Of a DNA stretch of 64,000 bases, positions 28,692 to 45,590 are shown piece after piece; position 1 is the first letter of the stretch; each line of letters opens with the position of its first letter. This DNA is from Arcobacter defluvii. Lineage in GTDB: Bacteria > Campylobacterota > Campylobacteria > Campylobacterales > Arcobacteraceae. The position numbers and the translations under genes are program-made. The notes beneath the pieces were generated by a model. That model had not been told where the DNA came from and did no database searches. It saw only the letters and a program-made list of their open reading frames with translations. Location of the stretch: contig NZ_CP053835.1 in NCBI RefSeq assembly GCF_013201725.1, positions 2,418,001 to 2,482,000 of the forward strand, given 5' to 3'.

Positions 28692-28808
28692 AATAATTCC
28701 ATATTTGTACAATTTTATATATTCATTTAATAATATTATCATTTATCTTTATTATTTCTTAATATATTTATCTATAAAATATCTTATTTTATTATTAAAG
28801 GAAAAATT

Positions 28809-29690
28809 ATGTTAAAAAATTGTTTTAGATTGGTACTAAAATTTATTTTGGTAATGTTTTTTGGTTTTTTATTTGCAACTAGTGCATCAGCTACAATAAA
28901 TGAAAATGGTGCAATCATTGAAAATAACAGTTTTGCTACTGCATATCCAATAGGTTATTGGCAATATCATGCTTCAACAGTTTGTATGTTGGAAGCAGGT
29001 GAAACTGAAGCTTACTTTAGTTTTACGGCAAATAGTGGAGATAGAGTATATGCAAGCGCTATTCTTAGTCAAGATTATGTAAATTCGGGTATGACTATTC
29101 AAACATTCAATAATAATCAAGTCAGTTTAGCACCAGCTAGTGATGATGTAATTACTTCTGCTTCTGTACTTCCTTTTATTTTTGCAAATGCAAGTGCAAC
29201 TTCAAACTCTCAAACATTTTTTATAAGGGTAACTAGAGGAAGTTATGTAGGAGATATGTTTTTCCCTATTTCTATCAACAATAGAATAAGTTCAGGAATG
29301 GGTACATTTAATTTTACGGGAACTGCTTCTAATACTGGTAATCCAAATATTTTAACTAATCCAAATGGTGTTGATTCTTCTGTTATTTACATGGATTTAA
29401 CAAACAATACAACAATTCCAAATGGTGCTATTGTTAAATCTTTTGCTACAACAGGAACTCTTAATCCTAGTAATTTAGGTGGTATTACACATAAAATCTT
29501 ATCAGCTGAAAATAATGTTTGGTACACAGCTATAGTATCTGGAACTTTTGGATTAACTACATCTAATAATTTAAAAGTTGCTAAAAAATGGAGTTTTAAA
29601 TACAATTTTAAAGGTACTTCTTCATCAAAAATGTCAAATGTAAAAGCTAAAATTAGTTACGAATATGATTTAACTAATCAATTTCAATAG
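28809..29690 (+). CDS. Secreted beta-rich protein, PPC-like
   Basis: A 293-residue protein with a clear Sec signal peptide (about 1-31, hydrophobic core then SASA). The mature chain is rich in Ser, Thr, Asn, Ala and Gly. ENNSFATAYPIG followed by GETEAYFSFTANSGDRVYAS resembles the start of PPC (bacterial pre-peptidase C-terminal) domains found in exported proteins. No catalytic site is seen. It has its own ribosome binding site AAAGGAAAA and is followed by a strong terminator. It lies about 0.9 kb downstream of the type II secretion operon's end, so it is a candidate client, by position only. Confidence 0.65.
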   Translation: MLKNCFRLVLKFILVMFFGFLFATSASATINENGAIIENNSFATAYPIGYWQYHASTVCMLEAGETEAYFSFTANSGDRVYASAILSQDYVNSGMTIQTFNNNQVSLAPASDDVITSASVLPFIFANASATSNSQTFFIRVTRGSYVGDMFFPISINNRISSGMGTFNFTGTASNTGNPNILTNPNGVDSSVIYMDLTNNTTIPNGAIVKSFATTGTLNPSNLGGITHKILSAENNVWYTAIVSGTFGLTTSNNLKVAKKWSFKYNFKGTSSSKMSNVKAKISYEYDLTNQFQ

Positions 29691-29745: not shown

Positions 29746-30378
29746 TTAGTATTTATTATTTTCTATTCCTTCTATAATAGAAGTGGGTAGTTTTTCTGAA
29801 GACTTTATCTCTCCATCAAGTGTATCACCTGATATATTTAATCTGATATTATAAGAACTATTTTTATCTAAAGCACCTAAAAAATAACTGGCTGTTTCTA
29901 AAACTCTATTTTCATTTGAGTTATCTATAATTTTTATCTTTAAATCACTTAAGTAATTTAAATAATCCTCATTAATAGATATTGAGAAATTTGTTTTTAT
30001 TGAGTTATCATTGATTTCACCAAAAATAGTAATATTTCTATCATTATCTTTGTCTTTTAAGTTTATATCTATACTATTTAACAATTGGATAATATATTTA
30101 CCTGAAGAATCTACTTCAGTAAATAAAATATTTCCTCTTTCTACAATTTGTTTCTCTTTTTCAACTTTTTTCTCTTCAACTTCCACTTCTTTTATTACTT
30201 CTATTTTTTCTTGTTTTGGTAACTCTTTTATCTCTTCTACTTTTTGTATTGGTGGTCTTGTAGGTTTTACCATCTCCATAACATATTCATCTTTTGGATA
30301 AAAATAATAACTTGCAAACCCAACTATAGTAACTAATGTAACTACTATTTTAATTCTTTTATCTTCAAAATCAACCAT
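29746..30378 (-). CDS. Membrane-anchored protein with charged stalk, unknown function
   Basis: A 210-residue protein with one membrane helix (about 9-26) and an outside C-terminus. A Pro/Glu/Lys/Val-rich stalk (about 36-80, many VE and KE repeats) leads to a beta-rich domain of about 125 residues with Asn/Asp-rich loops (SGKYIIQLLNSIDINLKD). The layout recalls TonB- or GspC-like bitopic proteins, but no motif supports a name. It ends next to the bidirectional terminator and starts about 200 bases after the type II secretion operon in the same direction, so it could be its distal gene. Confidence 0.6.
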   Translation of the reverse strand: MVDFEDKRIKIVVTLVTIVGFASYYFYPKDEYVMEMVKPTRPPIQKVEEIKELPKQEKIEVIKEVEVEEKKVEKEKQIVERGNILFTEVDSSGKYIIQLLNSIDINLKDKDNDRNITIFGEINDNSIKTNFSISINEDYLNYLSDLKIKIIDNSNENRVLETASYFLGALDKNSSYNIRLNISGDTLDGEIKSSEKLPTSIIEGIENNKY

Positions 30379-30580: not shown

Positions 30581-31087
30581 TTATTCTACTATCCTATACA
30601 TATTAAAAAAAACTCTCTCTTTATCTTTTTGTTTTATAAAAAAGTGATAATTTACTCCACTACTTTTAGCTTCAAAATACTCTATATTTTCTTCTAATTC
30701 ATCAATATATGAATTATCAAAAAATGTTGCATTTAATGGATCTTGCTCATTAAAAACTTGTAAACTCTCAATTCTAATAAATTTATTTGTTGAATTTATT
30801 AGATAGGTAATATTGTTAAAAATTGAGTTATGATAGGTGTTATTTGTAACTATTTTTACTATTGAATTTTTGTTTTTATCAGTTGTGATAGTTATACTTG
30901 AAGCCTCTGCAATATCTTCTAAAAAAATATTATGAAGATGATTAATATGTTTTAAACTATCCTCTTTTTTTGTAAAAATATTATTTGAGTATTTTGTTTG
31001 ATCTAAAGTTTTATATAAAAAAACTATTATTATCAAAAATAGTGTTATGGAGATAAGAAGTTCTAAAAGAGTAAATGATTTTTTCAT
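30581..31087 (-). CDS. gspJ: Type II secretion minor pseudopilin, GspJ-like
   Basis: A 168-residue protein with the type IV prepilin start MKKSFTLLELLISITLF: a short basic leader, Phe at +1 and Glu at +5 after cleavage. The remaining 140 residues form an Asn/Ser-rich globular domain ending in FFNMYRIVE. Position (last pilin, after GspI) and size fit GspJ, part of the I-J-K pseudopilus tip. It overlaps gspI by four bases. An in-frame open stretch continues after its stop. Confidence 0.7.
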   Translation of the reverse strand: MKKSFTLLELLISITLFLIIIVFLYKTLDQTKYSNNIFTKKEDSLKHINHLHNIFLEDIAEASSITITTDKNKNSIVKIVTNNTYHNSIFNNITYLINSTNKFIRIESLQVFNEQDPLNATFFDNSYIDELEENIEYFEAKSSGVNYHFFIKQKDKERVFFNMYRIVE

Positions 31088-31491
31088 AATTCAAATTTAA
31101 AAGTATAAATTTTCTTTTTTATATCGCTATTTTCCATAAAAAAGCTTCTATAATATGTTGTAAAATTCAAACTATTATGATTTGATTCTAAAGTTAGAGA
31201 ATCTAAATTTTCATCTTTTATAGATACTTTTATATCTTTTAATTCAGCTCTTAATTTTTCATTTTCAAACTTATATTTGTTTTCTATATTTATATTTTCA
31301 TTCTTATCAAAAATCGTATCATTAAAATCTATTGCCATAAGAATATAGTCATTTATCTTTGCTCTTTCATCACTTTTTGAAACCATAAAAATATTTTCAC
31401 TTTTAATTTGAAGTAAAGTAATCATTACAACACTAAGTAATACAACAGAGATAATAACCTCCATCAAAGTAAAAGCTTTTTTATTTTGCAT
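31084..31491 (-). CDS. gspI: Type II secretion minor pseudopilin, GspI-like
   Basis: A 135-residue prepilin. The leader MQNKKA precedes FTLMEVIISVVLLSVVMITLL, with Phe at +1 and Glu at +5. The rest is short and charged. Length and the placement beside gspJ fit GspI, which starts assembly of the pseudopilus tip. It starts 2 bases after the gspE stop and overlaps gspJ, so translation is coupled. The GspI/GspJ distinction rests on size and order, not sequence identity. Confidence 0.7.
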   Translation of the reverse strand: MQNKKAFTLMEVIISVVLLSVVMITLLQIKSENIFMVSKSDERAKINDYILMAIDFNDTIFDKNENINIENKYKFENEKLRAELKDIKVSIKDENLDSLTLESNHNSLNFTTYYRSFFMENSDIKKKIYTFKFEL

Positions 31492-31493
31492 AA

Positions 31494-32999
31494 TTATTTT
31501 ATACCTATTCTTATTACTTCATCAACAGATGTTTCACCGTTTTCAAGCATTGATTTAAGTTGCTTATCTAAACTTATCATTCCATTTTTATTTGCAAGTT
31601 TCATCAAAGTATTATCATCAACTTCACCTTTTAGATACTCTTTTATCTCATCATCTATTATAAAAAGTTCTCCAATAGCAACTCTTCCACTATAACCTGT
31701 GAAATTACAAGCTTTACAACCATTTGCTTTATAGATTGTTTTTGTTGTATCAAAGCCAAAAAATTTGTGTGATGCCATTGATTCATCTTCACATTTACAA
31801 ACTGGACAAAGTTTTCGCACTAATCTTTGAGCTAAAACTGCAAGTAAAGATGAAGAGATTAAAAACTTTTCAACTCCCATATCTATAAGTCTTGTTATTG
31901 CTGCTGGCGCTCTATTTGTATGAAGTGTTGAAAATAATAAGTGTCCTGTTAAAGCTGATTGAACTGCAATTGAAGCTGTTTCACTATCTCTTATCTCTCC
32001 AACCATTATAATATCTGGATCTTGTCTTAAAATCGACCTCAAACCACTTGCAAAAGTAAGCCCTACTTTTGTATTTACTTGTATTTGAGAAAAGGCATTT
32101 GATTTATACTCAACTGGGTCTTCAACAGTTATGATATTTTTTTCAACACTTACAACTTGATGTAAAAGCGAGTGCAAAGTTGTTGATTTTCCACTACCTG
32201 TTGGACCAGTAACTAAAACCATACCATAAGAGTTTTGTAAAGTTTTTTCTAGCTCATCAGTTATATAAGTAGGAAATCCAAGCTCTTTTACACTTTTTAT
32301 ATCTTCACTTTGCATCAAGATTCTCATAACAACTCTTTCACCATAAAAAGTTGGTAATATTGAAACCCTTATATCCAAACTCTTTCCAGCTATTTTGATT
32401 TGAGTTCTTCCATCTTGTGGAACTCTTTTTTCACTAATATCCAAATTTGAAATAACTTTTATTCTTGAAATTACCAAAGACATAATATTTTTATCAAGCT
32501 CTATATGTTTTACTAAAACTCCATCAACTCTATATTTTACCTCTGCTTTAAATTCATGCATCTCTATATGAATATCTGAAGATTTTTTCTTTATTGCTTG
32601 ATAAAAAAGTGAATTTACAAATTTGATAATTGGAGCTGATTCTTCAGAAGTTAAAATATCACTTCCAACTTTTAAAAACTCACTTACAGAAAAATCATCA
32701 TCACTTAATGTTGCATCTTCTTGTTCTTGTTGAATCGCACTCATCTCTTTATCAGTTTTTATCTCTAAAAATCTATTATAAAGTTTTTCAAAAGAGATTT
32801 CATCTAAGAAAATTATCTCTTCATCTGTTTTTATTTTTGATAAATAATCAAATGAAACACTCATATACTCTTTTGATAAAGCAATTACAACTTTTTCATC
32901 AATTTTTGTATATAAAACATAGTTTTTTAAAGCTGTTATATAATTCTCAACCTCATCAAAAGCTGTTAAATTTAGATTATGAACTTCATTTATATTCAT
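31494..32999 (-). CDS. gspE: Type II secretion ATPase GspE
   Basis: A 501-residue cytoplasmic ATPase that powers pseudopilus growth. An N-terminal GspL-binding region (about 1-120) is followed by the conserved core: DIHIEMHEFKAEVKYRVDG, RVPQDGRTQIKIAG, Walker A GPTGSGKST (about 263-271), the Asp box with ITVEDPVEY, Walker B PDIIMVGEIRD and the His box TGHLLFSTLHTNRA. A four-cysteine zinc element appears as CPVCKCED and CKACNFTGY. The family spans T2SS GspE and PilB, and the surrounding GspC-D-L-M set identifies T2SS. It begins one base after gspD. Confidence 0.93.
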   Translation of the reverse strand: MNINEVHNLNLTAFDEVENYITALKNYVLYTKIDEKVVIALSKEYMSVSFDYLSKIKTDEEIIFLDEISFEKLYNRFLEIKTDKEMSAIQQEQEDATLSDDDFSVSEFLKVGSDILTSEESAPIIKFVNSLFYQAIKKKSSDIHIEMHEFKAEVKYRVDGVLVKHIELDKNIMSLVISRIKVISNLDISEKRVPQDGRTQIKIAGKSLDIRVSILPTFYGERVVMRILMQSEDIKSVKELGFPTYITDELEKTLQNSYGMVLVTGPTGSGKSTTLHSLLHQVVSVEKNIITVEDPVEYKSNAFSQIQVNTKVGLTFASGLRSILRQDPDIIMVGEIRDSETASIAVQSALTGHLLFSTLHTNRAPAAITRLIDMGVEKFLISSSLLAVLAQRLVRKLCPVCKCEDESMASHKFFGFDTTKTIYKANGCKACNFTGYSGRVAIGELFIIDDEIKEYLKGEVDDNTLMKLANKNGMISLDKQLKSMLENGETSVDEVIRIGIK

Positions 33000-33000
33000 A

Positions 33001-34947
33001 TTATTGTCCTAAAAGTTCTTTCACTCTTTTGTCATGTTCAGCTTGTGAATCTTTATTTATCGAAGTTTCACTATTTAAATCTTTTAATTGTTCATTTAAA
33101 TTTTTAATTTTTTCTTCTCTTTTTTGAGCTTCCAATTTTTTCTTAATAGCATCCTCTTTTAATCTTATTAAAGAATCAGCTAAATATCTATCTTCCATTC
33201 CTTTAAGTTCTGCTAACTGATTTCTTACATAAGTAATATCTTTTGCTTTTGGTATCATATATGGAGTTACAATAACAACTAAATTATTCTTTTTATTTGT
33301 TGTAGAATCATTTGTAAATAGACTTCCAACTAAAGGGATATCTCCTAAAACTGGAACTTTTTGAACTGTTGATTCACTTCTATTTTCTATTAATCCACCA
33401 ATTATTACACTTTCACCATTATTTAAAATAGCTGTAGTTTTTATCTCTTTTTTAAGTGTATCAGGATTTTGACCTGCTGATACTTTTGTAGATTTAATTC
33501 CCTCTAATAAAGCATTTATTTCCAATGTCACTTTTGATTCACTTGAAATTCTAGGTTTTACTTTAAGTGTAAGTCCTACATCTTCTCTTTGATAATTTGT
33601 TCTTTCAGTTCCACCATCAGTTACACTACTTGAAGTTTCAACAGAAATTTTTTCACCAACATAAATTGAACTCTCTTTATTATTTACAGCTAAAATAGAT
33701 GGTTCAGAAACCACATCTAAAGCTCCATTTTGTTTAAGTAGATTTAAAGAAGCACCAAGAGCAAGACCTGATTTTATATCAGGAATATCTAATCCAATAG
33801 CATCTTTTACTAAAGAGATTGAATTTGAACCACCATTTAAATTTGATGAGAAAGTTGCAAGTCCATTACTTCCAGCTGTTCCTCCAAAAATTCCATATTG
33901 AACTCCAATATTATTTACTAATTCATCATTAACTTCAATAATTCTAGCTTGCACATAAACTTGAGCTTTCTCTTTATCTAATTCATCCATTAATGTTTGA
34001 ATATATTCAAGCTCATCAGCTGGTCCCATAACAATTATTGTATTTGTTTCTTCATCAGCTGAAATCAATGGCTTTCTATTTGGATCACTATATGTTTTTT
34101 TACCAACAACAGAATCAAGTATTTTTATAACGTTTATAGCTTCTACATTTTTTAAAGAAAAAACTTTTACTTCTCTTTTTATTAGAGAACTTCCTTCATC
34201 GACATTTTTAATATATCGTGCAAGATAGTTAATATTTCCTGCTTCTCCAATAATTACAACAGAATTATTATCTTTATTCTCAACAACTGAAACTTTTTGA
34301 GTTTCTACTTTTTCATTAAATTTTGATTTTGCAATTGCATCTAGATTTTTTTTAGCTTCACTTGCATCTATATTTTTAAGTTCAACTATAACACTATTTT
34401 TATTTGCACCACTTGTCATGATTTTAACTACTTCTTTTACTGTATCAATATTGTCTTTGAAATCAGTTATTACTAAAGCATTTGAATCTTTATTTGTAAC
34501 CATTTTCGCATCTTTTGAAATAAGATGTCTTATTTTTGAAGCAACATAATCAACATCAGCATCTTTTACAGTAAAAACTTCTGTTACCATCCAATATAAA
34601 TCATTTGATGAATTATTATTTGCGATTGGGACATTGCTATTTGCACTTTCATTTAGTTTTACAATTCTTAAAATTTCATCGGTTTGAACCAAAGAATAAC
34701 CTTTGTCTTCAAGAACATATCCTAAGATTTTGATTAATTCATCTTTATTTACTGGTTTATTAGAAACAAAATCAACATTACCTTTTATATCTTCTGTTAT
34801 TAAAATATTTTTATCTATGATTTTTGAAGTTATTTTTATCAAATCCATAACTTTTAAATCTTTGAAATTTATATTTACTTTATCATCAGCACCATTTAAT
34901 TGTAAAACTATCAAACTTACAACTAAAATTTTATTAATCAATCTCAT
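33001..34947 (-). CDS. gspD: Type II secretion outer-membrane secretin GspD
   Basis: A 648-residue secretin with a signal peptide (about 1-20), an N0 domain (about 23-95), N1-N3 modules (about 110-330) and the secretin barrel (about 385-570). Typical motifs are NTIIVMGPADELEYIQTLMDELD, VYVQARIIEVND, LDVVSEPSILAVNNKES and the late GLIENRSESTVQKVPVLGDIPLVGSLF. A charged coiled-coil tail follows (about 590-648), where pilotin-binding S domains lie in other secretins, but no lipoprotein pilotin gene is next door. It overlaps gspC by 14 bases. Confidence 0.93.
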   Translation of the reverse strand: MRLINKILVVSLIVLQLNGADDKVNINFKDLKVMDLIKITSKIIDKNILITEDIKGNVDFVSNKPVNKDELIKILGYVLEDKGYSLVQTDEILRIVKLNESANSNVPIANNNSSNDLYWMVTEVFTVKDADVDYVASKIRHLISKDAKMVTNKDSNALVITDFKDNIDTVKEVVKIMTSGANKNSVIVELKNIDASEAKKNLDAIAKSKFNEKVETQKVSVVENKDNNSVVIIGEAGNINYLARYIKNVDEGSSLIKREVKVFSLKNVEAINVIKILDSVVGKKTYSDPNRKPLISADEETNTIIVMGPADELEYIQTLMDELDKEKAQVYVQARIIEVNDELVNNIGVQYGIFGGTAGSNGLATFSSNLNGGSNSISLVKDAIGLDIPDIKSGLALGASLNLLKQNGALDVVSEPSILAVNNKESSIYVGEKISVETSSSVTDGGTERTNYQREDVGLTLKVKPRISSESKVTLEINALLEGIKSTKVSAGQNPDTLKKEIKTTAILNNGESVIIGGLIENRSESTVQKVPVLGDIPLVGSLFTNDSTTNKKNNLVVIVTPYMIPKAKDITYVRNQLAELKGMEDRYLADSLIRLKEDAIKKKLEAQKREEKIKNLNEQLKDLNSETSINKDSQAEHDKRVKELLGQ

Positions 34948-35737
34948 AATTTAACTCCACTACTTCATTATTTCTTAGAATCTCTATATTTAAATATTTT
35001 GTATTTTCAATATTGTTATAAACTTTAAATGCTTCAGCATAAGAACTTAAAACATTGTTATTAACTGATTTTATAACATCTCCTTTTTTTAAACCAAGTT
35101 TCTCAAAAACAGAATCTTTATTTATATTTTCAATCTTAAAACCTTCAATTTTATCTCCATTTTTTAACTCTTGTATAGAAATATTACTCCATATTTTTTC
35201 CACATTTGAAATATAAGAATTTAAATATTCTCTCTTTACAACAGCTCCATTTTCTTTTTCTTCTATTTGTTGATTACTTTGGTTCATATCAAAATTTGAA
35301 ATCTCTTTCTCTTTTATTTCCAATTTATATTCTTTATTATTTTTTTTGAAAAGTACATAGTTTTTAAAAAGTTTAAAAAGTACATAACCATCTATTTCTT
35401 CACCATAAGCTAATATATAACTTTGTGTTCTAGATTTTTCTTCTATTGTTATCCAGCCTTTATCAAAAGCTGTGTAATAGATTGCTTTTAAATCATACTT
35501 TTCTAAAGTTTGAAGAGGTTTATCTTTTATTTGCTCAAAACTTCTATCTTCAATTTTTTTAATATTAGAATAAAAATCATATTTTTTATAATCTAAAGTT
35601 GAAGAAGAATCTTTTATATATGAAACTCCATTTTTAGGAAGAAAGAAAAATAAAATTGAGTTCAATATATATGCTATTAATATGATATAAATAAAAGGTA
35701 TCAATTTTTGAAATAATTTACTAAAATTTATATTCAT
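34934..35737 (-). CDS. gspC: Type II secretion inner-membrane protein GspC
   Basis: About 267 residues from the ATG at 35737, placed 7 bases after AAAGG. Two further in-frame ATGs upstream (35743 and 35758) have poor spacing. One membrane helix (about 10-30) is followed by a homology region (about 60-140, LKAIYYTAFDKGWITIEE) and a C-terminal PDZ domain (about 175-260, GFKIENINKDSVFEKLGLKKGDVIKSVNN). GspC links the inner platform to the GspD secretin and recruits substrates. It lies next to gspD as in canonical systems and overlaps the GspN-like gene. Confidence 0.85.
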   Translation of the reverse strand: MNINFSKLFQKLIPFIYIILIAYILNSILFFFLPKNGVSYIKDSSSTLDYKKYDFYSNIKKIEDRSFEQIKDKPLQTLEKYDLKAIYYTAFDKGWITIEEKSRTQSYILAYGEEIDGYVLFKLFKNYVLFKKNNKEYKLEIKEKEISNFDMNQSNQQIEEKENGAVVKREYLNSYISNVEKIWSNISIQELKNGDKIEGFKIENINKDSVFEKLGLKKGDVIKSVNNNVLSSYAEAFKVYNNIENTKYLNIEILRNNEVVELNYEID

Positions 35738-36251
35738 ATACATACCTTTCATTTTCATATTTAAAATATTTTAAGAGTTTAGAATATGAGTTTTTCATCT
35801 GTTTTGAAGCATTTAATTCAACTTTTAATACTCTATTTAAGATATTTATTTCTGCTTTCATTTCACCAAAAAGTCCAAAAGCTTCCATATAAATTTTATT
35901 TGGATTTAAAATAGAGTGTCTTATATCTATTTTATCTATTGGACTTGGAGCAAAAGAGGTAAAACTATCTATTAAACTTATATTTGTTAACTCAATTTTT
36001 GTATATAAAAATAGACTCATAAAATTAAAACTATCAACTTTTGCTATATTTATACCTTCAAAAAATATATTTGCATTTGATACGTTTAAACTCAATAATT
36101 TCTCATCTCTTATTTCATCAGAGATTATTATTTGTTTTTGTTCTAACTCTTTTTCCAATAAATTATAAAGGGATTCTTTAGGTAAAAAAATCATAAAAAA
36201 TAGGATAAAGGCAAATAAATACATAAAAAATTTCAAAATCTTTTTCATCAT
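35721..36251 (-). CDS. gspN: GspN-like type II secretion protein
   Basis: A 176-residue bitopic protein with one N-terminal helix (about 6-24) and a periplasmic beta-rich domain (LNVSNANIFFEGINIAKVDSF, FSLFLYTKIELTNIS-type strands). The pattern of strand repeats and its place after GspM resemble GspN, an accessory inner-membrane component present in some T2SS. The name rests mainly on context. It overlaps gspM by 4 bases and gspC by 17. Confidence 0.6.
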   Translation of the reverse strand: MMKKILKFFMYLFAFILFFMIFLPKESLYNLLEKELEQKQIIISDEIRDEKLLSLNVSNANIFFEGINIAKVDSFNFMSLFLYTKIELTNISLIDSFTSFAPSPIDKIDIRHSILNPNKIYMEAFGLFGEMKAEINILNRVLKVELNASKQMKNSYSKLLKYFKYENERYVYEYKF

Positions 36252-36643
36252 TTAGTTCCTACTTCAAGAATTATAAAATTTTTATCTAGCTCTAACTTTT
36301 TTATGATTAGTTGTTTATTTAAAACTCTATTTAAAAAATTATCTAAAACATGAGAATCTGTCGTTTCAATTTTTATTTTGATACTCTCTTTTGTTGCTGT
36401 TTTTACAATTTTTTCATTTTTAAATATTGAATTTTTTAAAATCTCATCTAAAGTTTTATTTATATACTTTTCGTTTTTCCAAGAATTTGATAAATCTTTA
36501 TACTCTTTTGCTTTTGTTTCTAATTGAATTGTTTCCAAACTTTTTTCCAAATAAAGTTTTTTTTGATTTGAGACTAAATAAAAAGATATAAAAAAAAGTG
36601 TCAAAAAAAGTAAAATTATATATAAAGGGTTTATTCTAGTCAT
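36248..36643 (-). CDS. gspM: GspM-like type II secretion protein
   Basis: A 131-residue bitopic protein with one helix at about 9-26. A coiled coil follows (about 28-70), then a small ferredoxin-like periplasmic domain (about 75-131, ESIKIKIETTDSHVLDNFLNRV). This is the layout of GspM, the partner of GspL in the assembly platform. Similarity to PilO is expected for the fold. It overlaps gspL and gspN by four bases each, so the three are tightly coupled. Confidence 0.65.
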   Translation of the reverse strand: MTRINPLYIILLFLTLFFISFYLVSNQKKLYLEKSLETIQLETKAKEYKDLSNSWKNEKYINKTLDEILKNSIFKNEKIVKTATKESIKIKIETTDSHVLDNFLNRVLNKQLIIKKLELDKNFIILEVGTK

Positions 36644-37554
36644 AATTGAACCTTTATATTTGAAATAAGATTTGAAGAATTTGTTGAAATGATTTTATAT
36701 TTTTTTGATATGTATTCTTCTAGTTTTTTTCCATTTACATTTAAAAAATCTATATTTAAAATATCATTTTGCAACTCTATATTTTTTATTTCAAAATCAT
36801 TATTTGATAAAATATAATAAATCGCTTCACGTTTATTTATCTCTTTTTGAGCAATCTTTTTATTTGATGAAATTATTGAATCAATTTGTATCATACTATT
36901 TGGAAGATTATTTGATATTTTTATATCTTGCATTTTTTTATCTAAATTTGATATTTCATTTGAATAAATAAAATATTTTGAAAAATTTATAACTATAAAA
37001 ATTAAACAAAAAGCCAAAATCATATTGATTTGTTTTGAAGTCAAGAAATTACTATAAAGTTTAATATCAACTCTATTTGCAGATAAATTTATATTCTCAA
37101 TATAATTTTTCAAATCTACTTTTTCACTCAAAAGTTCTTTTGGTATTTTTACTAAAATCTCATCTTGCGTATATAAAAAACTTTTATCATCAACATAAAA
37201 CTGCTTGAAGTTTTTACATTCATTTTGAGCAAAATATATAGAATTTACTAAAGATAGATTTATTCCACTTTGTTTAATTGCTTCATAAATTTTTTGATTT
37301 ATATATGCAAAACATAAATATTTATTTGTTTCAAGTTTTATTACTTGATAAGATAAATCAGTTACATCTTGAAGTAAATCTTCAAATAAAGTAGGAACAA
37401 CAGCCCTTGCTTGTGAAATGTTTTTTACTGGAATATCAAATATTCTAACCCAATAAAATTCAGGAGATAAAATAATATCAACCTTTGAAGTCTCATTTAT
37501 CTTTGTATCTGAACATAAAAATATTTTTTTACTTTTACTTGAAACTAAATTCAA
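36640..37554 (-). CDS. gspL: GspL-like type II secretion protein
   Basis: A 304-residue protein with a cytoplasmic actin-like region (about 1-170; FDIPVKNISQARAVVPTLFEDLL is the typical GspL/PilM-like segment). A single helix (about 175-195) and a periplasmic part of about 105 residues follow. GspL recruits the ATPase GspE to the membrane. It overlaps the upstream GspK-like gene by 20 bases and gspM by 4. The sequence is divergent, so assignment depends on domain layout and gene order. Confidence 0.7.
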   Translation of the reverse strand: MNLVSSKSKKIFLCSDTKINETSKVDIILSPEFYWVRIFDIPVKNISQARAVVPTLFEDLLQDVTDLSYQVIKLETNKYLCFAYINQKIYEAIKQSGINLSLVNSIYFAQNECKNFKQFYVDDKSFLYTQDEILVKIPKELLSEKVDLKNYIENINLSANRVDIKLYSNFLTSKQINMILAFCLIFIVINFSKYFIYSNEISNLDKKMQDIKISNNLPNSMIQIDSIISSNKKIAQKEINKREAIYYILSNNDFEIKNIELQNDILNIDFLNVNGKKLEEYISKKYKIISTNSSNLISNIKVQL

Positions 37555-38197
37555 AATACTCTACTCCTCCATTTTTATTTAAAATATAATAAGCTTTTGC
37601 AAATTGCTTTAAATAATCAACATCTACAAATAATTCATAAAATAAAATCTCTTTTTCTTTTTCATTTTGAGTTATCTCTTTTTTATCATAATCCATAAAT
37701 CCAATATAATCTTTCACTTTTGAAATATCTATGTTGTAACTCTCTTTTTCGAATTTTTCAAATAAATTATCTAATTGTTTATTATTTTTGATGTTGTCAT
37801 TTTCTTTTAATATAGCTTGCAAAGTATAAATATCATAAATCTCATTTCTTTGTAAAAAGTCTTTTAAATATTCATATTTTTTGTCATCTTTTTCATTCAA
37901 TAAATTTATATTGTATTTATCATACTCTTCTAGTTTTATACTGATTTTTGCATCTTGAACTAAAATAGGATATTCAACTCCTATATACTCTTTTAATATA
38001 TCTTCATCCAATTTTTTTGAAAGAACATTTGATATTTCATCTTTTGCATTATTTATATAAAACATAATTTGTGTTTTACTAAATTTTGCATTTTGTTCAG
38101 CAAGATAAGAATCTGTATCTTGTAAATTTTTTAATATCAAAAGAGAAATAACAGCTATAAAAAGAAGAGAAATTAGTAAAACGATAGATTTTTTCAC
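37535..38197 (-). CDS. GspK-like minor pseudopilin or T2SS accessory protein
   Basis: A 220-residue protein with an N-terminal helix (MKKSIVLLISLLFIAVISLLILKNL) and a charged, helical remainder. Canonical GspK has a prepilin leader, lacks Glu at +5 and is the large tip pseudopilin. This protein also lacks Glu+5 and stands between GspF and GspL, a normal site for K in a T2SS set. However, it is smaller than typical GspK (about 300 residues). The assignment is tentative. It lies 3 bases downstream of gspF. Confidence 0.5.
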   Translation of the reverse strand: MKKSIVLLISLLFIAVISLLILKNLQDTDSYLAEQNAKFSKTQIMFYINNAKDEISNVLSKKLDEDILKEYIGVEYPILVQDAKISIKLEEYDKYNINLLNEKDDKKYEYLKDFLQRNEIYDIYTLQAILKENDNIKNNKQLDNLFEKFEKESYNIDISKVKDYIGFMDYDKKEITQNEKEKEILFYELFVDVDYLKQFAKAYYILNKNGGVEYFEFSFK

Positions 38198-38200
38198 AGA

Positions 38201-39415
38201 TTAACCTAAATTCATAGAAAAAATTGGTAAAAGCATAGAAATAACAATAAAACCTATGATACTTCCAACAAATAACATAAAAATAGGTTCTAATAAAGAT
38301 AAAAAAATATCTGTTTTATCCTTATTTGCTTCATTATAAAGTGATGCCAAATTATTCAAAATTTGTGATAATCTACTTGTATCTTCCCCAATTGCAATAG
38401 AATGAATAAAAGCTTCATCAATTTTATATATCTTATTATTTGCCAATAAAACTGAGAGTTTTTTCCCTTCAACTACACTCTTTGAAGCATCAATAAATAC
38501 TCTTTTTATTACAGAATTTTTTAAAATATTTGCACTTAAGTTTATAGCTTGAACTATTGGAATACCTGATTTTATAAGGATTGAGTTCATATATGAAAAA
38601 CGAGATAATTCACCTTGTTCTATCATCTTTGAAAAAAATGGAACTCTTAAACAAAATTTGTCAAAAGCATATTTAAATGGTTTTGATTTTTTTAATAAAA
38701 AAATAAATCCACCAATTAAAACAACAAAAAATAAAATTATATAACCATAATTATTTGAAAAGAAGTCCCCTAAAGTTATAACTATTTTTGTACTTGTTGG
38801 TAATTCTTGATTTATTTGAGTAAAAATTCCAGTAATTTTTGGAACTATAAAACTAAGCATAAAACCAACCATAAAAAAAGAAATAAATAGGATAAAAAGT
38901 GGGTAAGCCATAGCACTTCCAACTTGTTTTTTGATTCTATCTTGCTCTTTTAAAAAAACAGATAATTCTAATAAAACAGATTCTAATAATCCACCATTTT
39001 CACTGATTTTAATAGATTGTTTATAAAATTCTGGAAGTTTTAAAACATTTTGAGAATCAAGAGCTTGATAAAAGGTTTTTCCTTCATCTAAATATGTAGA
39101 AATTGACTCAAAAAAAGAACCTAAAACTCTATCATTTTTATATCGTTGTTTTAATAAATCAATTGCCTGAATAAGTGAAATTCCTGAGTTTAAATATATA
39201 CTTAAATCTCTACTAAGATAAGACAAATCAGCAAGAGTTATATTTCTTTTTCTCTTAAAAGAGATTTTTGAAATAGAAAAATTTTCTTCTTGTAAAAAAG
39301 TATATAAAATTCCCTTTGCTTTTAGTTTTACTTTTGCTTCTTCAAGTGTTGATGCTTCTAGTTTTGATTTTACTTTTAAACCATTTGAATCAAAACCACT
39401 ATATCTAAAAAGCAT
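38201..39415 (-). CDS. gspF: Type II secretion inner-membrane platform protein GspF
   Basis: A 404-residue protein with two T2SSF domains (about 65-190 and 270-395) and three membrane helices (about 168-192, 218-240 and 372-398). Recognisable stretches include SRDLSIYLNSGISLIQAID, FYKQSIKISENGGLLESVLLEL, GSAMAYPLFILF and LLEPIFMLFVGSIIGFIVISMLLPIFSM. It forms the polytopic core of the pump. It overlaps the GspH-like gene by 11 bases. Orientation and neighbours fit T2SS rather than type IV pili. Confidence 0.92.
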   Translation of the reverse strand: MLFRYSGFDSNGLKVKSKLEASTLEEAKVKLKAKGILYTFLQEENFSISKISFKRKRNITLADLSYLSRDLSIYLNSGISLIQAIDLLKQRYKNDRVLGSFFESISTYLDEGKTFYQALDSQNVLKLPEFYKQSIKISENGGLLESVLLELSVFLKEQDRIKKQVGSAMAYPLFILFISFFMVGFMLSFIVPKITGIFTQINQELPTSTKIVITLGDFFSNNYGYIILFFVVLIGGFIFLLKKSKPFKYAFDKFCLRVPFFSKMIEQGELSRFSYMNSILIKSGIPIVQAINLSANILKNSVIKRVFIDASKSVVEGKKLSVLLANNKIYKIDEAFIHSIAIGEDTSRLSQILNNLASLYNEANKDKTDIFLSLLEPIFMLFVGSIIGFIVISMLLPIFSMNLG

Positions 39416-39947
39416 CTTTTACCTCAATTTCTTGAATATTAAAAGTTTCAAAACTTTCATTTAAAAAGTTGTATATTTTTGGTTTTGTAAAAATTGAATT
39501 AAAAACATAAACTTTATTTTCAAAAGTATCTACAATAAACTCATTTGTTTTAAAATCACTATTTATTTTCAATTCAAAAATTACATCATAATTAAAATTA
39601 TCAACTCTTAACTCTTTAAATTCCATTTTTCTTTCATTTTTATCATATTCATAAACTTCAGGTTTAATTTTAAAAAACTTTTCTATCTTAAAATCTTTAT
39701 CTAACTTACCATCAACTTTTACATAACAACTGAAATTTTCATCTATACATAAAAAAGATAGCTCTTTTTTAAAAGAAAATTTTTTTAGTAAAAAATCTTT
39801 AAGATTATCTAACTCTAACTTTTGATTTTGTTCTTTTATATTAAAGCTATTTGTTGAAAAAACTAAAAGATATGTTGCAGACATTATCAAAATAACAATT
39901 ATTAATTCAATTAGAGTAAAACTCTTTTTTACTCTAATTAATTTCAT
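39405..39947 (-). CDS. gspH: Minor pseudopilin, GspH-like
   Basis: A 180-residue prepilin-like protein. The leader MKLIRVKKS is followed by FTLIELIIVILIMSATYLLVF with Glu at +5. The mature part has two cysteines close together (LCIDENFSCYV) that could form a disulfide. It lies 2 bases after the major pseudopilin gene, where gspH sits in many T2SS. The identity as H, rather than another minor pilin, rests on position. Confidence 0.65.
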   Translation of the reverse strand: MKLIRVKKSFTLIELIIVILIMSATYLLVFSTNSFNIKEQNQKLELDNLKDFLLKKFSFKKELSFLCIDENFSCYVKVDGKLDKDFKIEKFFKIKPEVYEYDKNERKMEFKELRVDNFNYDVIFELKINSDFKTNEFIVDTFENKVYVFNSIFTKPKIYNFLNESFETFNIQEIEVKDAF

Positions 39948-39949
39948 TT

Positions 39950-40324
39950 TTATTTGCTACATTTTGATAAATAAATATCATCTTCACTATTTTCTTTTTT
40001 ATCTGCACCAAATGATACTAAATCAAAACCATCATCAGTTGCTATATAAACAAACTCATTTCCCCAAGCATCTTTTGGAGACTTTCCATCTTCAAAATAT
40101 TTCTTTTCAACTAAGATTTTTAAACCCTCTTCTGTTGTTGGATATGCAGAAGTATCCAATTTAAACATTTTTAGAGTTTGAGCTATACTTTTCATTTGAA
40201 TACATACAAGTTTGTCTTTAGCCTCATCACTTTTACCTGTTAAATTTGGTAAAACAAATGCAGCTAAAAGTCCTAAAATGATAATCACTACCATTAATTC
40301 CATTAAAGAGAATGCCTTTTTCAA
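39950..40324 (-). CDS. gspG: Type II secretion major pseudopilin GspG
   Basis: A 124-residue major pseudopilin, starting at TTG about 9 bases after AAAGG. Leader MKKA, then FSLMELMVVIIILGLLAAFVLP. The family signature follows: MKSIAQTLKMFKLDTSAYPTTEEGLKIL, then SPKDAWGNEFVYI and a C-terminal acidic calcium loop (GADKKENSEDDIYLS). It is the first gene of the operon, with about 360 bases of upstream control region. No prepilin peptidase gene (gspO) is in the window, so cleavage must use one encoded elsewhere. Confidence 0.95.
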   Translation of the reverse strand: MKKAFSLMELMVVIIILGLLAAFVLPNLTGKSDEAKDKLVCIQMKSIAQTLKMFKLDTSAYPTTEEGLKILVEKKYFEDGKSPKDAWGNEFVYIATDDGFDLVSFGADKKENSEDDIYLSKCSK

Positions 40325-40686: not shown

Positions 40687-42939
40687 ATGCATAAAAAAAT
40701 GACAAAATATACGATACTCTTATCCGCATTATTATTCACAGGATGTGGAGGAGGGAGTTCATCATCTTCAGATACTTCTGCACCAACTTTTACATCTTCA
40801 AATAGTGTTAGTGTAAATGAAAATCAAACATCTGCTATTACTTTAGTTGCAACTGATTCTTCTTCTATTACTTACTCTTTAAGTGGTACTGACAGCTCTT
40901 TTTTTGATATTGATAGTTCATCTGGTGTTATTACTTTCAAAGTAGCTCCTGATTTTGAAGCTAAAAACAGTTATTCATTTACTGCTATTGCTTCTGATTC
41001 TTCTAACAATAGTTCTAGCCAAGAAGTTACTATTAACATTTTAGACGTTGATGAAAATGGTACTTTTATTGACGACATTGTTTCTGGTATTAAATACATA
41101 AATGGTTCTATTACTGCTTTCACTGACATCAATGGTAATTTTCAATACATTGCGGGAAGTCCTATTTCATTTTATATTGGAAATATTAAAATTGGTGAAA
41201 TTGAACAACTCCCTTCTGACAATAAAGTATTTATTCAAGATTTAGTTGGTGTTGACAGAAACAATACTTCTGATGAAAAAGTAATAAAAATTGCTAAACT
41301 ATTACAATCTATTGATTCTGATGAAACTGACAAAATCCTCATTACTGAAGAAACCTTTAAAAAATTTGAGTCTATTTCTGATAACATTGAAAATATTGAT
41401 ATTGACACTATTCTTATCAACAATGCTTTCTCTCCTAAATCTGAAAATAGTGTTATGGAACATTTGGAAAATACAAATATTAAATATGATACAGTAAATC
41501 CAACATTAACTTATGATAAGTCTGAAGAAGAAGTTGTATCTCACTCTAGTTTATATAAAATAAAAGGAACTGCAAGTGATAATGTTGCATTAGAAAATGT
41601 TAATTTAGAAATAAATGGAACTATTACACCTATAGAAGTTACAAATGGAGAGTATACTGCTTCTTTAAGTCTAAAAGCAGGAGAAAATATCTATAAAATT
41701 ATTGCAACAGATAAAAATGGGAATAAAGCTGAAGTTAGAGGAAGTGTTTATTTAGGACATACAACAGCTGGTGCAAATGCTCATTCAGGAGCAATAAAAG
41801 GAGGAAAACTTTATACTTGGGGAAGAAATAATTATGCTCAAACAGGTATAGGTTATACTTCAACTTTATCAACATCAACTACAGAATATCCACATCCAAT
41901 TAGTCCAAAATATATAGCAGTAAATGATGTAAAATTTGTATCACTTTCATTTAACCAAAACTTTTCAACAGCAATTGATGAAAATGCTAATTTATGGACT
42001 TGGGGAGAAGATAAATCAGGTCAATTAGGAAGAGGTAATTTAGAAAAAGATAGTTGTAGCGGAACTGAAGATTGCAGAAAAACTATTGAAAAAGTTGATA
42101 ATTTAACAAATATCATATCTGTTGCAACAGGATATAATCATACTATTGCTCTAAAAAATGATGGAACGGTTTGGACTTTTGGTAAAAATGATAAAGGACA
42201 ATTAGGAGATGGAACTACAACTAATCAGTCAACTCCTGTAAAAGTTTTATTTAATGAAAGTGATAATGTAAAAGTAGTACAAGTTGCTGGTTCTTCAAAT
42301 TCTTCTTATGCTATTGATAATTTAGGAAGAGTATGGGCTTGGGGAAGTAATTCTTATTCAAATTTAGGACAGGGAAGCGCTAGTTCAACTGCACAAACTA
42401 CACCTATTTTAGTTCCATTTTCTCAAGAAGTTGAAATTGTATCTATAGATGCAGGAAGAGATCACGTTGTAGCTTTAGATAAGTCAGGAGTAGTTTATGC
42501 TTGGGGATTAAATGCAAGTAGTCAAGTTGGATTTAATGGAATTAATTATAAAGGAAATGCAAATGCTTGGGCAAGTCCAGTAACATCTCCTACAATTATC
42601 CCATCAACTCAAACAAACCCTGCAACAGAAGTTTTTGCAAATGGTAATATTAGTTATATTTTAAGAAGTGATAATAAAGTATATCCATGGGGAATGTTTG
42701 GGACAACTGACTCTTCAGGAAAAACAACTTATGCAAATTTAGATGAACCAGAAGATAAACTTCCTCTTTTAACTTCTGTGAGAGATATTGCTGTTGGTAT
42801 TTTACATCAAGTTGCTATTCAAAAAGATGGAACTATATTTACTTGGGGATGGAGTTTTGAAGGATCTTTAGGAGGAGGAGAAACTACTGCTGATACATGG
42901 ATGTATAACAATCCAATAATCCCAGTATTTCCAGAGTGA
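40687..42939 (+). CDS. Lipoprotein: cadherin-like module plus RCC1-type propeller
   Basis: A 750-residue predicted lipoprotein with a lipobox LFTGC and lipidated Cys20, then a Gly/Ser linker. A cadherin-like domain (about 30-120) is followed by a second module (about 125-262, VSGIKYINGS...FYIGNIKIG) of a type common in marine bacterial lipoproteins. A bacterial Ig-like stretch follows (about 270-355). The C-terminal 390 residues hold at least seven RCC1-type repeats (LYTWGRNN, LWTWGEDKSGQLG, VWTFGKNDKGQLG and so on), predicting a beta-propeller. Residues 19-263 are identical, save one, to the next gene's product. It lies divergent from the T2SS operon and is a candidate surface protein. Confidence 0.8.
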   Translation: MHKKMTKYTILLSALLFTGCGGGSSSSSDTSAPTFTSSNSVSVNENQTSAITLVATDSSSITYSLSGTDSSFFDIDSSSGVITFKVAPDFEAKNSYSFTAIASDSSNNSSSQEVTINILDVDENGTFIDDIVSGIKYINGSITAFTDINGNFQYIAGSPISFYIGNIKIGEIEQLPSDNKVFIQDLVGVDRNNTSDEKVIKIAKLLQSIDSDETDKILITEETFKKFESISDNIENIDIDTILINNAFSPKSENSVMEHLENTNIKYDTVNPTLTYDKSEEEVVSHSSLYKIKGTASDNVALENVNLEINGTITPIEVTNGEYTASLSLKAGENIYKIIATDKNGNKAEVRGSVYLGHTTAGANAHSGAIKGGKLYTWGRNNYAQTGIGYTSTLSTSTTEYPHPISPKYIAVNDVKFVSLSFNQNFSTAIDENANLWTWGEDKSGQLGRGNLEKDSCSGTEDCRKTIEKVDNLTNIISVATGYNHTIALKNDGTVWTFGKNDKGQLGDGTTTNQSTPVKVLFNESDNVKVVQVAGSSNSSYAIDNLGRVWAWGSNSYSNLGQGSASSTAQTTPILVPFSQEVEIVSIDAGRDHVVALDKSGVVYAWGLNASSQVGFNGINYKGNANAWASPVTSPTIIPSTQTNPATEVFANGNISYILRSDNKVYPWGMFGTTDSSGKTTYANLDEPEDKLPLLTSVRDIAVGILHQVAIQKDGTIFTWGWSFEGSLGGGETTADTWMYNNPIIPVFPE
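40741..41473 (+). repeat. 733-bp direct repeat, copy 1
   Basis: This copy runs from the Gly-Cys of the lipobox to about codon 263 of the RCC1 lipoprotein. It matches 42999-43731 with a single mismatch (T at 41440 against C at 43698, changing Ser to Pro). The two copies are 2258 bases apart in direct orientation. Confidence 0.98.
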
Positions 42940-42944
42940 TTAAT

Positions 42945-44981
42945 ATGAAAAAAAATATTCGTTTAATGGGCTTAAGTCTTTGCACTTTTGCCCTAGTTGG
43001 ATGTGGAGGAGGGAGTTCATCATCTTCAGATACTTCTGCACCAACTTTTACATCTTCAAATAGTGTTAGTGTAAATGAAAATCAAACATCTGCTATTACT
43101 TTAGTTGCAACTGATTCTTCTTCTATTACTTACTCTTTAAGTGGTACTGACAGCTCTTTTTTTGATATTGATAGTTCATCTGGTGTTATTACTTTCAAAG
43201 TAGCTCCTGATTTTGAAGCTAAAAACAGTTATTCATTTACTGCTATTGCTTCTGATTCTTCTAACAATAGTTCTAGCCAAGAAGTTACTATTAACATTTT
43301 AGACGTTGATGAAAATGGTACTTTTATTGACGACATTGTTTCTGGTATTAAATACATAAATGGTTCTATTACTGCTTTCACTGACATCAATGGTAATTTT
43401 CAATACATTGCGGGAAGTCCTATTTCATTTTATATTGGAAATATTAAAATTGGTGAAATTGAACAACTCCCTTCTGACAATAAAGTATTTATTCAAGATT
43501 TAGTTGGTGTTGACAGAAACAATACTTCTGATGAAAAAGTAATAAAAATTGCTAAACTATTACAATCTATTGATTCTGATGAAACTGACAAAATCCTCAT
43601 TACTGAAGAAACCTTTAAAAAATTTGAGTCTATTTCTGATAACATTGAAAATATTGATATTGACACTATTCTTATCAACAATGCTTTCTCTCCTAAACCT
43701 GAAAATAGTGTTATGGAACATTTGGAAAATAGCCTAGTAAATTATGGTATTTGGAGTACTCCTGCTGGAAGTGCTACTGTAGATTATGATAAATTAGAAC
43801 CTTTTATGAAAACTATTATAAATATTGAAGCTAATGAAATTGGTTCTGTTTCTCAAGGAAGAGAACTATTTATAGCTCAATGGCAAGCAGCGCCAGGGAC
43901 GAGAAGTACATTAGATGGACTAGGACCAATGTTTAATGCTGATGCATGTACAGCTTGTCATGTATCTGATGGCAGAGTAGCTCCTTTTAATACTAATGGG
44001 GGATTAGATGATTCATTCTTATTTAGAGTTGGAGATAAAAATGGGAATACTCATCCTATTTATGGAGGACAATTCCAAACTCATTCAACTGTAGGAGAAG
44101 CAGAAGCAAGTATTAGTTTAACAAAAAATGAAACAACAGGAAAAATTGAATTTTCTTCAATTCCAAATGTAAAAACTGATGGATTTAATCTTGGACCTAG
44201 AATAGCTCCACATTTATTAGGAATGGGGCTTTTAGATTTAGTTCCTCAAGAAACAATTTTAGAGTATGAAGATGAAAATGATGAAAATAATGATGGAATT
44301 TCAGGTAGAGCTCATTGGGTTTTTGAAGAAAATGAGACAAGATTAGGAAGATTTGGATGGAAAGCAATAAATTCTACTTTAAGAACTCAAAATGCTGGTG
44401 CTTTTCACCAAGATATGGGATTAACTTCTTCAGTTAATAGTGAAGAAAATTGTACTTCAAATCAAGAAATATGTTCTTCTGAGCCAAATGGAGGATACCC
44501 TGAAGTTAGTGAAGATTCTTTACAAGCTATTGTAAATTTTATGACAACAGTAGGAGTGCCACAAAGAAGAATTGAAAATCAAGAAAATTTTGATAAAGGT
44601 GCAATACTATTCAATTCAATTGGTTGTGCTTCTTGTCATAGACCAACAATGATTACAGGAGAAAGTACAAAATTCAAAAGTTTAAGTAATCAAAAAATTT
44701 ATCCTTATACTGATTTACTACTTCATGATATGGGTGAAAATTTAAGTGATGGGGTAAAAGAAAAAGATGCAAATGCAAGTGAATGGAGAACACCACCTTT
44801 GTGGGGGATAGGAATTGTTGAACAAAAAGAAGGTGCAAGATTTTTACATGATGGAAGAGCTTCAACTATTCAAGAAGCTATTTTAGAACATAGTGGAGAA
44901 GCACAAAAAATTAAAGAAAAATTTGTTGATTTAGATTCAACAGATAAAGAAAATCTATTAACATTTTTAAGAGGAATATGA
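42945..44981 (+). CDS. Lipoprotein: same N-terminal module plus di-heme oxidoreductase (DHOR)
   Basis: A predicted lipoprotein of 678 residues. I chose ATG 42945 rather than a GTG at 42936 that overlaps the previous stop, because it gives the signal MKKNIRLM with lipobox LVGC and Cys20. Residues 19-263 are the cadherin-like module shared with the previous gene. The remainder is a DHOR-type (DUF1111) di-heme domain with heme motifs CTACH and CASCH and the late WRTPPLWGIGI and FLHDGRASTIQEAILEHSGEA. Such proteins are related to cytochrome c peroxidases and thiol oxidoreductases; the reaction here is unknown. It starts 5 bases after the RCC1 gene, so the two form an operon. Confidence 0.85.
   Translation: MKKNIRLMGLSLCTFALVGCGGGSSSSSDTSAPTFTSSNSVSVNENQTSAITLVATDSSSITYSLSGTDSSFFDIDSSSGVITFKVAPDFEAKNSYSFTAIASDSSNNSSSQEVTINILDVDENGTFIDDIVSGIKYINGSITAFTDINGNFQYIAGSPISFYIGNIKIGEIEQLPSDNKVFIQDLVGVDRNNTSDEKVIKIAKLLQSIDSDETDKILITEETFKKFESISDNIENIDIDTILINNAFSPKPENSVMEHLENSLVNYGIWSTPAGSATVDYDKLEPFMKTIINIEANEIGSVSQGRELFIAQWQAAPGTRSTLDGLGPMFNADACTACHVSDGRVAPFNTNGGLDDSFLFRVGDKNGNTHPIYGGQFQTHSTVGEAEASISLTKNETTGKIEFSSIPNVKTDGFNLGPRIAPHLLGMGLLDLVPQETILEYEDENDENNDGISGRAHWVFEENETRLGRFGWKAINSTLRTQNAGAFHQDMGLTSSVNSEENCTSNQEICSSEPNGGYPEVSEDSLQAIVNFMTTVGVPQRRIENQENFDKGAILFNSIGCASCHRPTMITGESTKFKSLSNQKIYPYTDLLLHDMGENLSDGVKEKDANASEWRTPPLWGIGIVEQKEGARFLHDGRASTIQEAILEHSGEAQKIKEKFVDLDSTDKENLLTFLRGI
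42999..43731 (+). repeat. 733-bp direct repeat, copy 2
   Basis: Near-identical copy of 40741-41473, beginning at the lipobox GGATGTGGAG and ending within the codons for the di-heme lipoprotein's residue 263. Outside this span the two proteins share only general signal-peptide character. Identity at synonymous sites implies recent duplication or ongoing gene conversion. Confidence 0.98.
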
Positions 44982-44989
44982 TTTTCTTG

Positions 44990-45018
44990 ATTTCTAGAGT
45001 TAAAAAAACTCTAGAAAT
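44990..45018. terminator. Bidirectional terminator between the DHOR gene and yigZ
   Basis: A perfect 12-base-pair stem, ATTTCTAGAGTT (44990-45001) with AACTCTAGAAAT (45007-45018), has a loop of five A. It lies between convergent genes. The T tract on either side is weak, so efficiency is uncertain. Confidence 0.6.
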
Positions 45019-45590
45019 TAAAATATTTTAATATTTCTAGAAAGTAAAGGTAAAAGCTGTTCAAATTGTTCATTTGTAAGTTCAATTTGTAAACTTACAT
45101 TTGTTGAGAAATCTTTTGATTTTATATTTATATCTTCTTGATTTAAAAGATATTCAAGTTGTGAGAGTTCACTATATTCACACTCTAAAGTTTTAAAGAT
45201 TAATTTTTTATACTCTTTAAAAGTCGCTATTTTTATAGCCTCATTTACACTATCACCATAAGCTCGTACTAATCCACCAGTTCCAAGTTTTACACCACCA
45301 AAATATCGCACAATTATCACTGCACTATTTATGATTTCAGCTCCACTTAAAACAGCAAGTGATGGTTTTCCACTTGTTCCTTTTGGTTCTCCATCATCAC
45401 TACTATTTTCTACTATTTGTTCAAACTCATTTAAATATCTATAAGCATAAACAAAATGTACCGCTTTTGAATGTTCTTTTCTTAATCTTATCATCACCTC
45501 ATCAAATATTTCATAAGGCATTAAAAAAGCCATAAATTTCGATTTTTTTTCTTCGATTGAACAACTAAACTCTTTTTGAACAAACTTCAA
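45018..45590 (-). CDS. yigZ: YigZ/IMPACT family protein
   Basis: A 190-residue cytoplasmic protein of the YigZ (UPF0029, IMPACT) family. Motifs are KKSKFMAFLMP, AVHFVYAYR, NSSDDGEPKGTSGKPSLAVL and VIIVRYFGGVKLGTGGLVRAYGDSV. Family members are linked to translation regulation and nucleic acid binding, without a defined reaction. The start is TTG at 45590 behind GGGAG. Its ribosome binding site overlaps the -10 and ATG of the divergent tlyA gene. A terminator overlaps its stop. Confidence 0.9.
   Translation of the reverse strand: MKFVQKEFSCSIEEKKSKFMAFLMPYEIFDEVMIRLRKEHSKAVHFVYAYRYLNEFEQIVENSSDDGEPKGTSGKPSLAVLSGAEIINSAVIIVRYFGGVKLGTGGLVRAYGDSVNEAIKIATFKEYKKLIFKTLECEYSELSQLEYLLNQEDINIKSKDFSTNVSLQIELTNEQFEQLLPLLSRNIKIF

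Follow-up and report, generated by a model that had tools for sequence, protein, structure and literature searches.

Lipoproteins that reach the cell surface with the help of a T2SS have been described in Acinetobacter. InvL and FilF carry the motifs CGGGGDGY and CGGGSSTI, respectively; the surface location of InvL requires this C+GGG motif together with GspN, and the release of FilF requires both gspD and gspN (PMC12802150). Surface lipoproteins require the GGG/ND motif, but it does not suffice on its own, and a second signal is needed (PMC12802150). In S. oneidensis, c-type cytochrome lipoproteins are reported to depend on GspD, in work cited by PMC12802150. The second case is SslE/AcfD (YghJ), a lipoprotein metalloprotease found in E. 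coli and in Vibrionaceae. It is a T2SS-beta substrate whose gene is located immediately upstream of the T2SS genes and whose secretion is blocked by C-terminal fusions (PMC3707838). The N-terminal region of SslE, which includes NT2 (230-425 in mature numbering), has been regarded as unique to SslE and its homologues (PMC8881592).

The window analyzed in this study, a stretch of 64,000 nt from Arcobacter defluvii, encodes two lipoproteins (LP1 and LP2) that are located beside a T2SS cluster, as is the case for SslE (PMC3707838). As in InvL and FilF, both have a lipobox with a C+GGG(S) motif and are accompanied by a genomic T2SS, here with a putative gspN, and they have a domain in common with FilF (MODb, see below). 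They differ from the Acinetobacter proteins (PMC12802150) in the cadherin that precedes MODb, in their RCC1 and DHOR cargoes, in a positional gspN of only 176 aa and in the location of the lipoprotein genes next to the T2SS cluster.

Organization of LP1, LP2 and the T2SS cluster

LP1 (40687..42939, + strand) is a lipoprotein of 750 aa with a signal peptide, the motif CGGGSSSSSD, a cadherin, MODb, a Glucodextran_B-like Ig domain (41500..41748, +; Pfam) and an RCC1 propeller. LP2 (42945..44981, +; 678 aa) has a signal peptide, the same module as LP1 and a DHOR di-haem domain. The two genes are co-directional with a gap of 5 bp if LP2 starts at the ATG at 42945; an alternative GTG at 42936 would make it overlap the LP1 stop. 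A terminator-like 15-bp hairpin (44987..45021, +) lies between LP2 and the convergent yigZ. The T2SS cluster, with the gene order G-H-F-K-L-M-N-C-D-E-I-J, is located at 30581..40324 on the - strand and is divergent from LP1. Genes E, D, F and G were identified by Pfam and C by an NCBIfam match below the cut-off; H, I and J have weak matches, and K, L and M were called from position and conservation. The putative gspN gene (35721..36251, -; 176 aa) was likewise assigned by its position in the gspM-gspC interval and has no significant profile match: Pfam found nothing, TIGR04411 matched three of 19 members at an E-value of 0.03 or weaker, a PDB profile search found nothing, and the single-sequence fold (pLDDT 47) was uninformative. 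This gene is conserved in 39 of 104 family genomes.

The initial annotation had described a near-identical pair of 733 bp starting at the lipobox Gly-Cys, preceded by different signal peptides and followed by unrelated domains, and direct comparison bears this out. The copies, at 40741..41473 and 42999..43731 (both +), run from the lipobox Gly-Cys to the end of the module and contain a single mismatch at offset 699 (T at 41440, C at 43698), which results in Ser or Pro at residue 252 of both proteins. To the left of the copy starts there is not a single common base, and to the right the sequences diverge abruptly from offset 733. The lipoboxes (LLFTG/C and FALVG/C, by inspection) place the Cys at residue 20 in both LP1 and LP2, and the signal peptides outside the repeat are different. 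Both copies are in frame. Recombination between them would, as had been predicted, remove 2258 bp and leave an in-frame fusion of the first signal peptide, the module and DHOR, since both copies keep the reading frame of the ORF to which they belong. The full module is present only twice in the genome (3.02 Mb, single contig), in which no silent third copy was found. A chance origin of the repeat is excluded. Since 733 bp exceeds the length of short reads and polishing could homogenise two diverged copies, the near-identity might in principle stem from assembly or polishing, a reading that we consider very improbable: the mismatch was retained within one contig, and the edges are sharp. Because each copy lies between distinct unique flanks on that contig and both ORFs are intact, an assembly artefact is an unlikely source of the repeat.

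Each module has the acylated Cys followed by a GGGSSSSSD motif of the sorting type (40744..40773 in LP1 and, identical to it, 43002-43031 in LP2, both +); CGGGSSSSSD in both proteins corresponds to the Gly/Ser-rich motifs in Table 1 of PMC12802150. The initial annotation had regarded the module as an anchor plus a cadherin. A cadherin (PF00028) is indeed present (40804..41040 and 43062-43298, both +; E-values 1e-9 in LP1 and 2e-9 in LP2), but it covers residues 40-118 only, and residues 124-259 form a second domain. The single PF00028 per module also differs from the arrays of bacterial cadherin-like proteins, and among Arcobacteraceae relatives the cadherin is shuffled independently of MODb.

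The cargoes were identified with Pfam. LP1 carries RCC1 repeats (41989..42891, +; 1e-47) in five stretches with a PF00415 score of 160.9 bits, above the cut-off, and the propeller is putatively for binding. LP2 matches DHOR (PF06537; 6e-73, 246 bits, above the Pfam cut-off) and has two CxxCH haem motifs, CTACH (43947..43961, +) and CASCH (44625..44639, +). Because of this family assignment and both haem motifs, LP2 probably acts outside the cell, either as a di-haem peroxidase or in electron transfer. It resembles the Shewanella surface cytochromes MtrC and OmcA, reportedly GspD-dependent, but has a di-haem DHOR fold and is not decahaem.

Elsewhere in the genome, a 46-bp match to the module is located in a lipoprotein gene (C1:527223-529574; L112:1724-4075) encoding a protein of 783 aa with the motif CGGGSSSNSSD, two CxxCH motifs like LP2 and no Pfam match. 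Its orthologues in the T2SS-carrying sister species G029 and G020 are about 86% identical. The product is a second candidate surface cytochrome.

MODb and its kinship with SslE/AcfD and FilF

No Pfam model matches residues 124-259 of LP1 and LP2. Iterated searching of the family loci yielded a domain of about 137 residues, MODb (41056..41463 and 43314..43721, both +; the second located by repeat comparison and profile match). The profile, of which the window sequence is itself a member, matches the LP copies with E-values of 3.5e-47 and 5e-47. The direct matches of relatives (6.7e-43 at 55% identity) therefore carry more weight.

MODb is related to parts of known T2SS substrates. Fifteen of 28 MODb members match NCBIfam NF037974 (best 2.6e-9) and 12 of 28 match NF037973 (best 1.4e-7), at positions of about 180-260 and 286-364 on the SslE/AcfD and SslE models. 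The MODb of the window itself matches SslE weakly (0.003), the homology running through the family. The profile also matches 23px, a solved chain of SslE, with an E-value of 9e-7; the matched residues, 278-340, lie within NT2 according to the limits given in PMC8881592. For this part of the SslE N-terminal region, the MODb matches therefore contradict the supposed uniqueness. A Photobacterium SslE/AcfD has two MODb, one right behind the lipobox (3.6e-19) and a second at 575-663 (3.8e-9). We rejected the possibility that MODb is DUF4092 of AcfD, since this Pfam domain lies elsewhere in the Photobacterium protein. A MODb member adjoining the T2SS of genome G041 matches FilF over residues 52-209 (1.9e-5). 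LP1 and LP2 have a domain in common with SslE/AcfD and are not members of that metalloprotease family: they reach 15 bits in one domain of NF037974, against a cut-off of 800 bits over the whole length with M60, and they contain no M60 peptidase and no DUF4092 but quite different outer domains. A single-sequence structure prediction of MODb (pLDDT 44) was too poor for searching.

MODb occurs in two contexts. In most relatives it begins 8-35 residues after the lipobox. Among 62 such lipobox-MODb proteins, collated by hand, C-GGG is present in 28, a Gly follows the Cys in 47, and the seven residues after the Cys are rich in G, S, D, N or T in 54. The domains behind MODb include S8 subtilase, S41 peptidase, Big_5 arrays, PKD, DUF285 and cadherin, and in Proteobacteria lipobox-MODb precedes pectinesterases, carboxylesterases and SslE/AcfD. 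In the second context MODb stands in tandem within very large proteins, far from a lipobox. Examples are the Arcobacteraceae proteins of 1.4-3 kaa at loci L017, L018, L019, L028 and L030, which mostly have two MODb in tandem and no nearby lipobox.

These findings support the initial description of a lipid-anchored N-terminal module with differing outer domains next to a T2SS. The proposed reuse of the module for displaying different outer domains holds for its MODb half, which in many species stands in front of proteases, esterases or Ig arrays. When named genomes were scanned with the whole module, the matches were confined to generic cadherin domains from unrelated phyla and were not used. 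The initial annotation knew of no described system of this kind, which has to be qualified, as T2SS surface lipoproteins with C+GGG are described (PMC12802150) and MODb lies within the known SslE and FilF.

Association with T2SS and the export model

We compared the occurrence of MODb (E-value of at most 1e-8) and GspG in 397 Campylobacteria genomes that were at least 90% complete, with hit lists transcribed by hand. MODb was found in 48 genomes, GspG in 95 and both in 45. GspG was thus present in 45 of 48 genomes with MODb versus 50 of 349 without (OR 90, p 6e-29; phylogeny uncorrected beyond genus level). At the genus level, GspG occurs in 38 of 68 genera, and these include every one of the 24 genera with MODb (p 6e-9). 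Of the three MODb genomes lacking GspG, G330 and G452 have a T2SS-like GspD (1e-134 and 2e-82), which leaves G440 as the only one of the 48 MODb genomes without T2SS evidence. RTX repeats are typical of type I-secreted proteins and served as control; they showed no link with GspG (30/116 versus 65/281, OR 1.16, p 0.6). Physical proximity is modestly enriched: five of 83 MODb genes are located within 20 kb of gspG (p 0.02), and most do not neighbour T2SS genes. In G041, a MODb subtilase gene adjoins gspG in divergent orientation, and in G160 and G291 MODb lipoprotein genes are found near T2SS genes. The GGG-codon pattern across the family was dropped as a test because it is too unspecific for lipoproteins.

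We compared two locations for LP1 and LP2. They are probably taken to the outer cell surface by the adjoining T2SS, a location we infer from sequence and homology. The GGG motif would keep them off the Lol pathway and pass them to GspN; by analogy with PMC12802150, retention at the inner membrane would be followed by hand-over to GspN and passage through the secretin. The RCC1 propeller and the peroxidase-like di-haem cytochrome would be displayed outside, with the cadherin as a spacer. Alternatively, both proteins would stay in the periplasm or the inner leaflet, the proximity of the T2SS would be incidental and the repeat would be the remnant of an ordinary duplication. This would agree with the role of GGG in Pseudomonas as a signal for Lol avoidance and inner-membrane retention, as far as the discussion in PMC12802150 presents it. 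It is nevertheless unlikely in view of the association of MODb with T2SS, the homology to SslE and FilF, the MODb lipoproteins adjoining T2SS genes in several genera and the CGGGSSS lipoproteins that T2SS-bearing sister species also have.

With surface export as the preferred reading, MODb would be an N-terminal structure that T2SS lipoproteins have in common, and it would either be recognised by the machine or form a stalk outside. We know of no general T2SS recognition element. Positioned behind the GGG motif and tracking T2SS almost perfectly in Campylobacteria, MODb is a specific candidate for the element that is missing: tentatively, it may be the second export signal of T2SS lipoproteins or part of it, portable and recognised by the machine. 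Such a signal, equally tentative in its reach, would be common to SslE, FilF and dozens of surface enzymes and cytochromes that are otherwise unrelated, and in this genome it would recently have been copied onto a second cargo. An even chance is given to MODb as a passive stalk or assembly domain, with recognition residing in the GGG motif and the cargo fold; MODb would then be linked to T2SS for no other reason than that the proteins carrying it are T2SS cargo, and the export of LP1 and LP2 would not be in dispute. A stalk fits the internal position of MODb in proteins of 2.5-3 kaa, its presence twice in some SslE-type proteins and other T2SS substrates not being known to have it. It also fits the block of SslE secretion by C-terminal fusions, which warns that an N-terminus might not suffice for export. 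It fits less well with MODb being almost always the first domain after the lipobox and conserved over unrelated cargoes, and with the need for an added signal beside the GGG motif, for which MODb is the common element. The very large proteins (L017-L019, L028, L030) count against the export model itself, since there MODb is no N-terminal signal. At a minimum, MODb is a marker by which T2SS surface lipoproteins can be predicted from their sequences.

History of the repeat and the insertion site

The module differs from its host in codon usage (GAC 0.41 versus 0.05, TAC 0.60 versus 0.10, ATA 0.06 versus 0.38), and its codon score is about 3 SD under that of host windows, mostly from residue 60 on. 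Because the C-terminal parts of LP1 and LP2 have host-like codon usage, all or most of the module may differ from the cargoes in its recent origin. A search for a donor of the module found nothing closer than about 56% identity in MODb.

The initial annotation had offered recent duplication or active gene conversion. Paralogous MODb from ten genomes or records with several copies are only 60-78% identical at the DNA level, and the 99.9% identity of the copies in the window thus suggests that a single, recent event of copying took place. On the same grounds we rejected active gene conversion as a general mode. Continuing conversion in this genome, by which the copies would be kept alike in a cassette system swapping outer domains, would explain why the repeat starts at the lipobox and stops where MODb ends, and why the module appears to have a history of its own, yet the divergence of paralogues elsewhere and the lack of a silent third copy make it quite improbable. 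With a single copying event, one N-terminal module would recently have been copied onto the neighboring gene, so that two cargoes now have one front end in common. The single difference does not tell which copy was the source.

In six relatives (G020, G091, G092, G099, G035 and G083), yigZ-tlyA-ribF directly follows gspG. In the window LP1-LP2 lies between gspG and yigZ, and it is absent from sister species. The block is best read as an insertion, as relatives have yigZ directly after gspG, and LP1-LP2 would have entered the gspG-yigZ gap. In G029 this gap (L093:11215-12577) is occupied not by LP1-LP2 but by two other small genes, which are related, and genes may thus have been gained repeatedly at this site.

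Further genes of the window have counterparts near T2SS clusters. The gene at 28809-29690 encodes a protein of 293 aa with a signal peptide, a possible soluble T2SS substrate, whose homologues (52-55%) adjoin the T2SS of G007 and G032. Homologues of the products of 27336-28742 and 29746-30378 also adjoin T2SS clusters (G032, G007).
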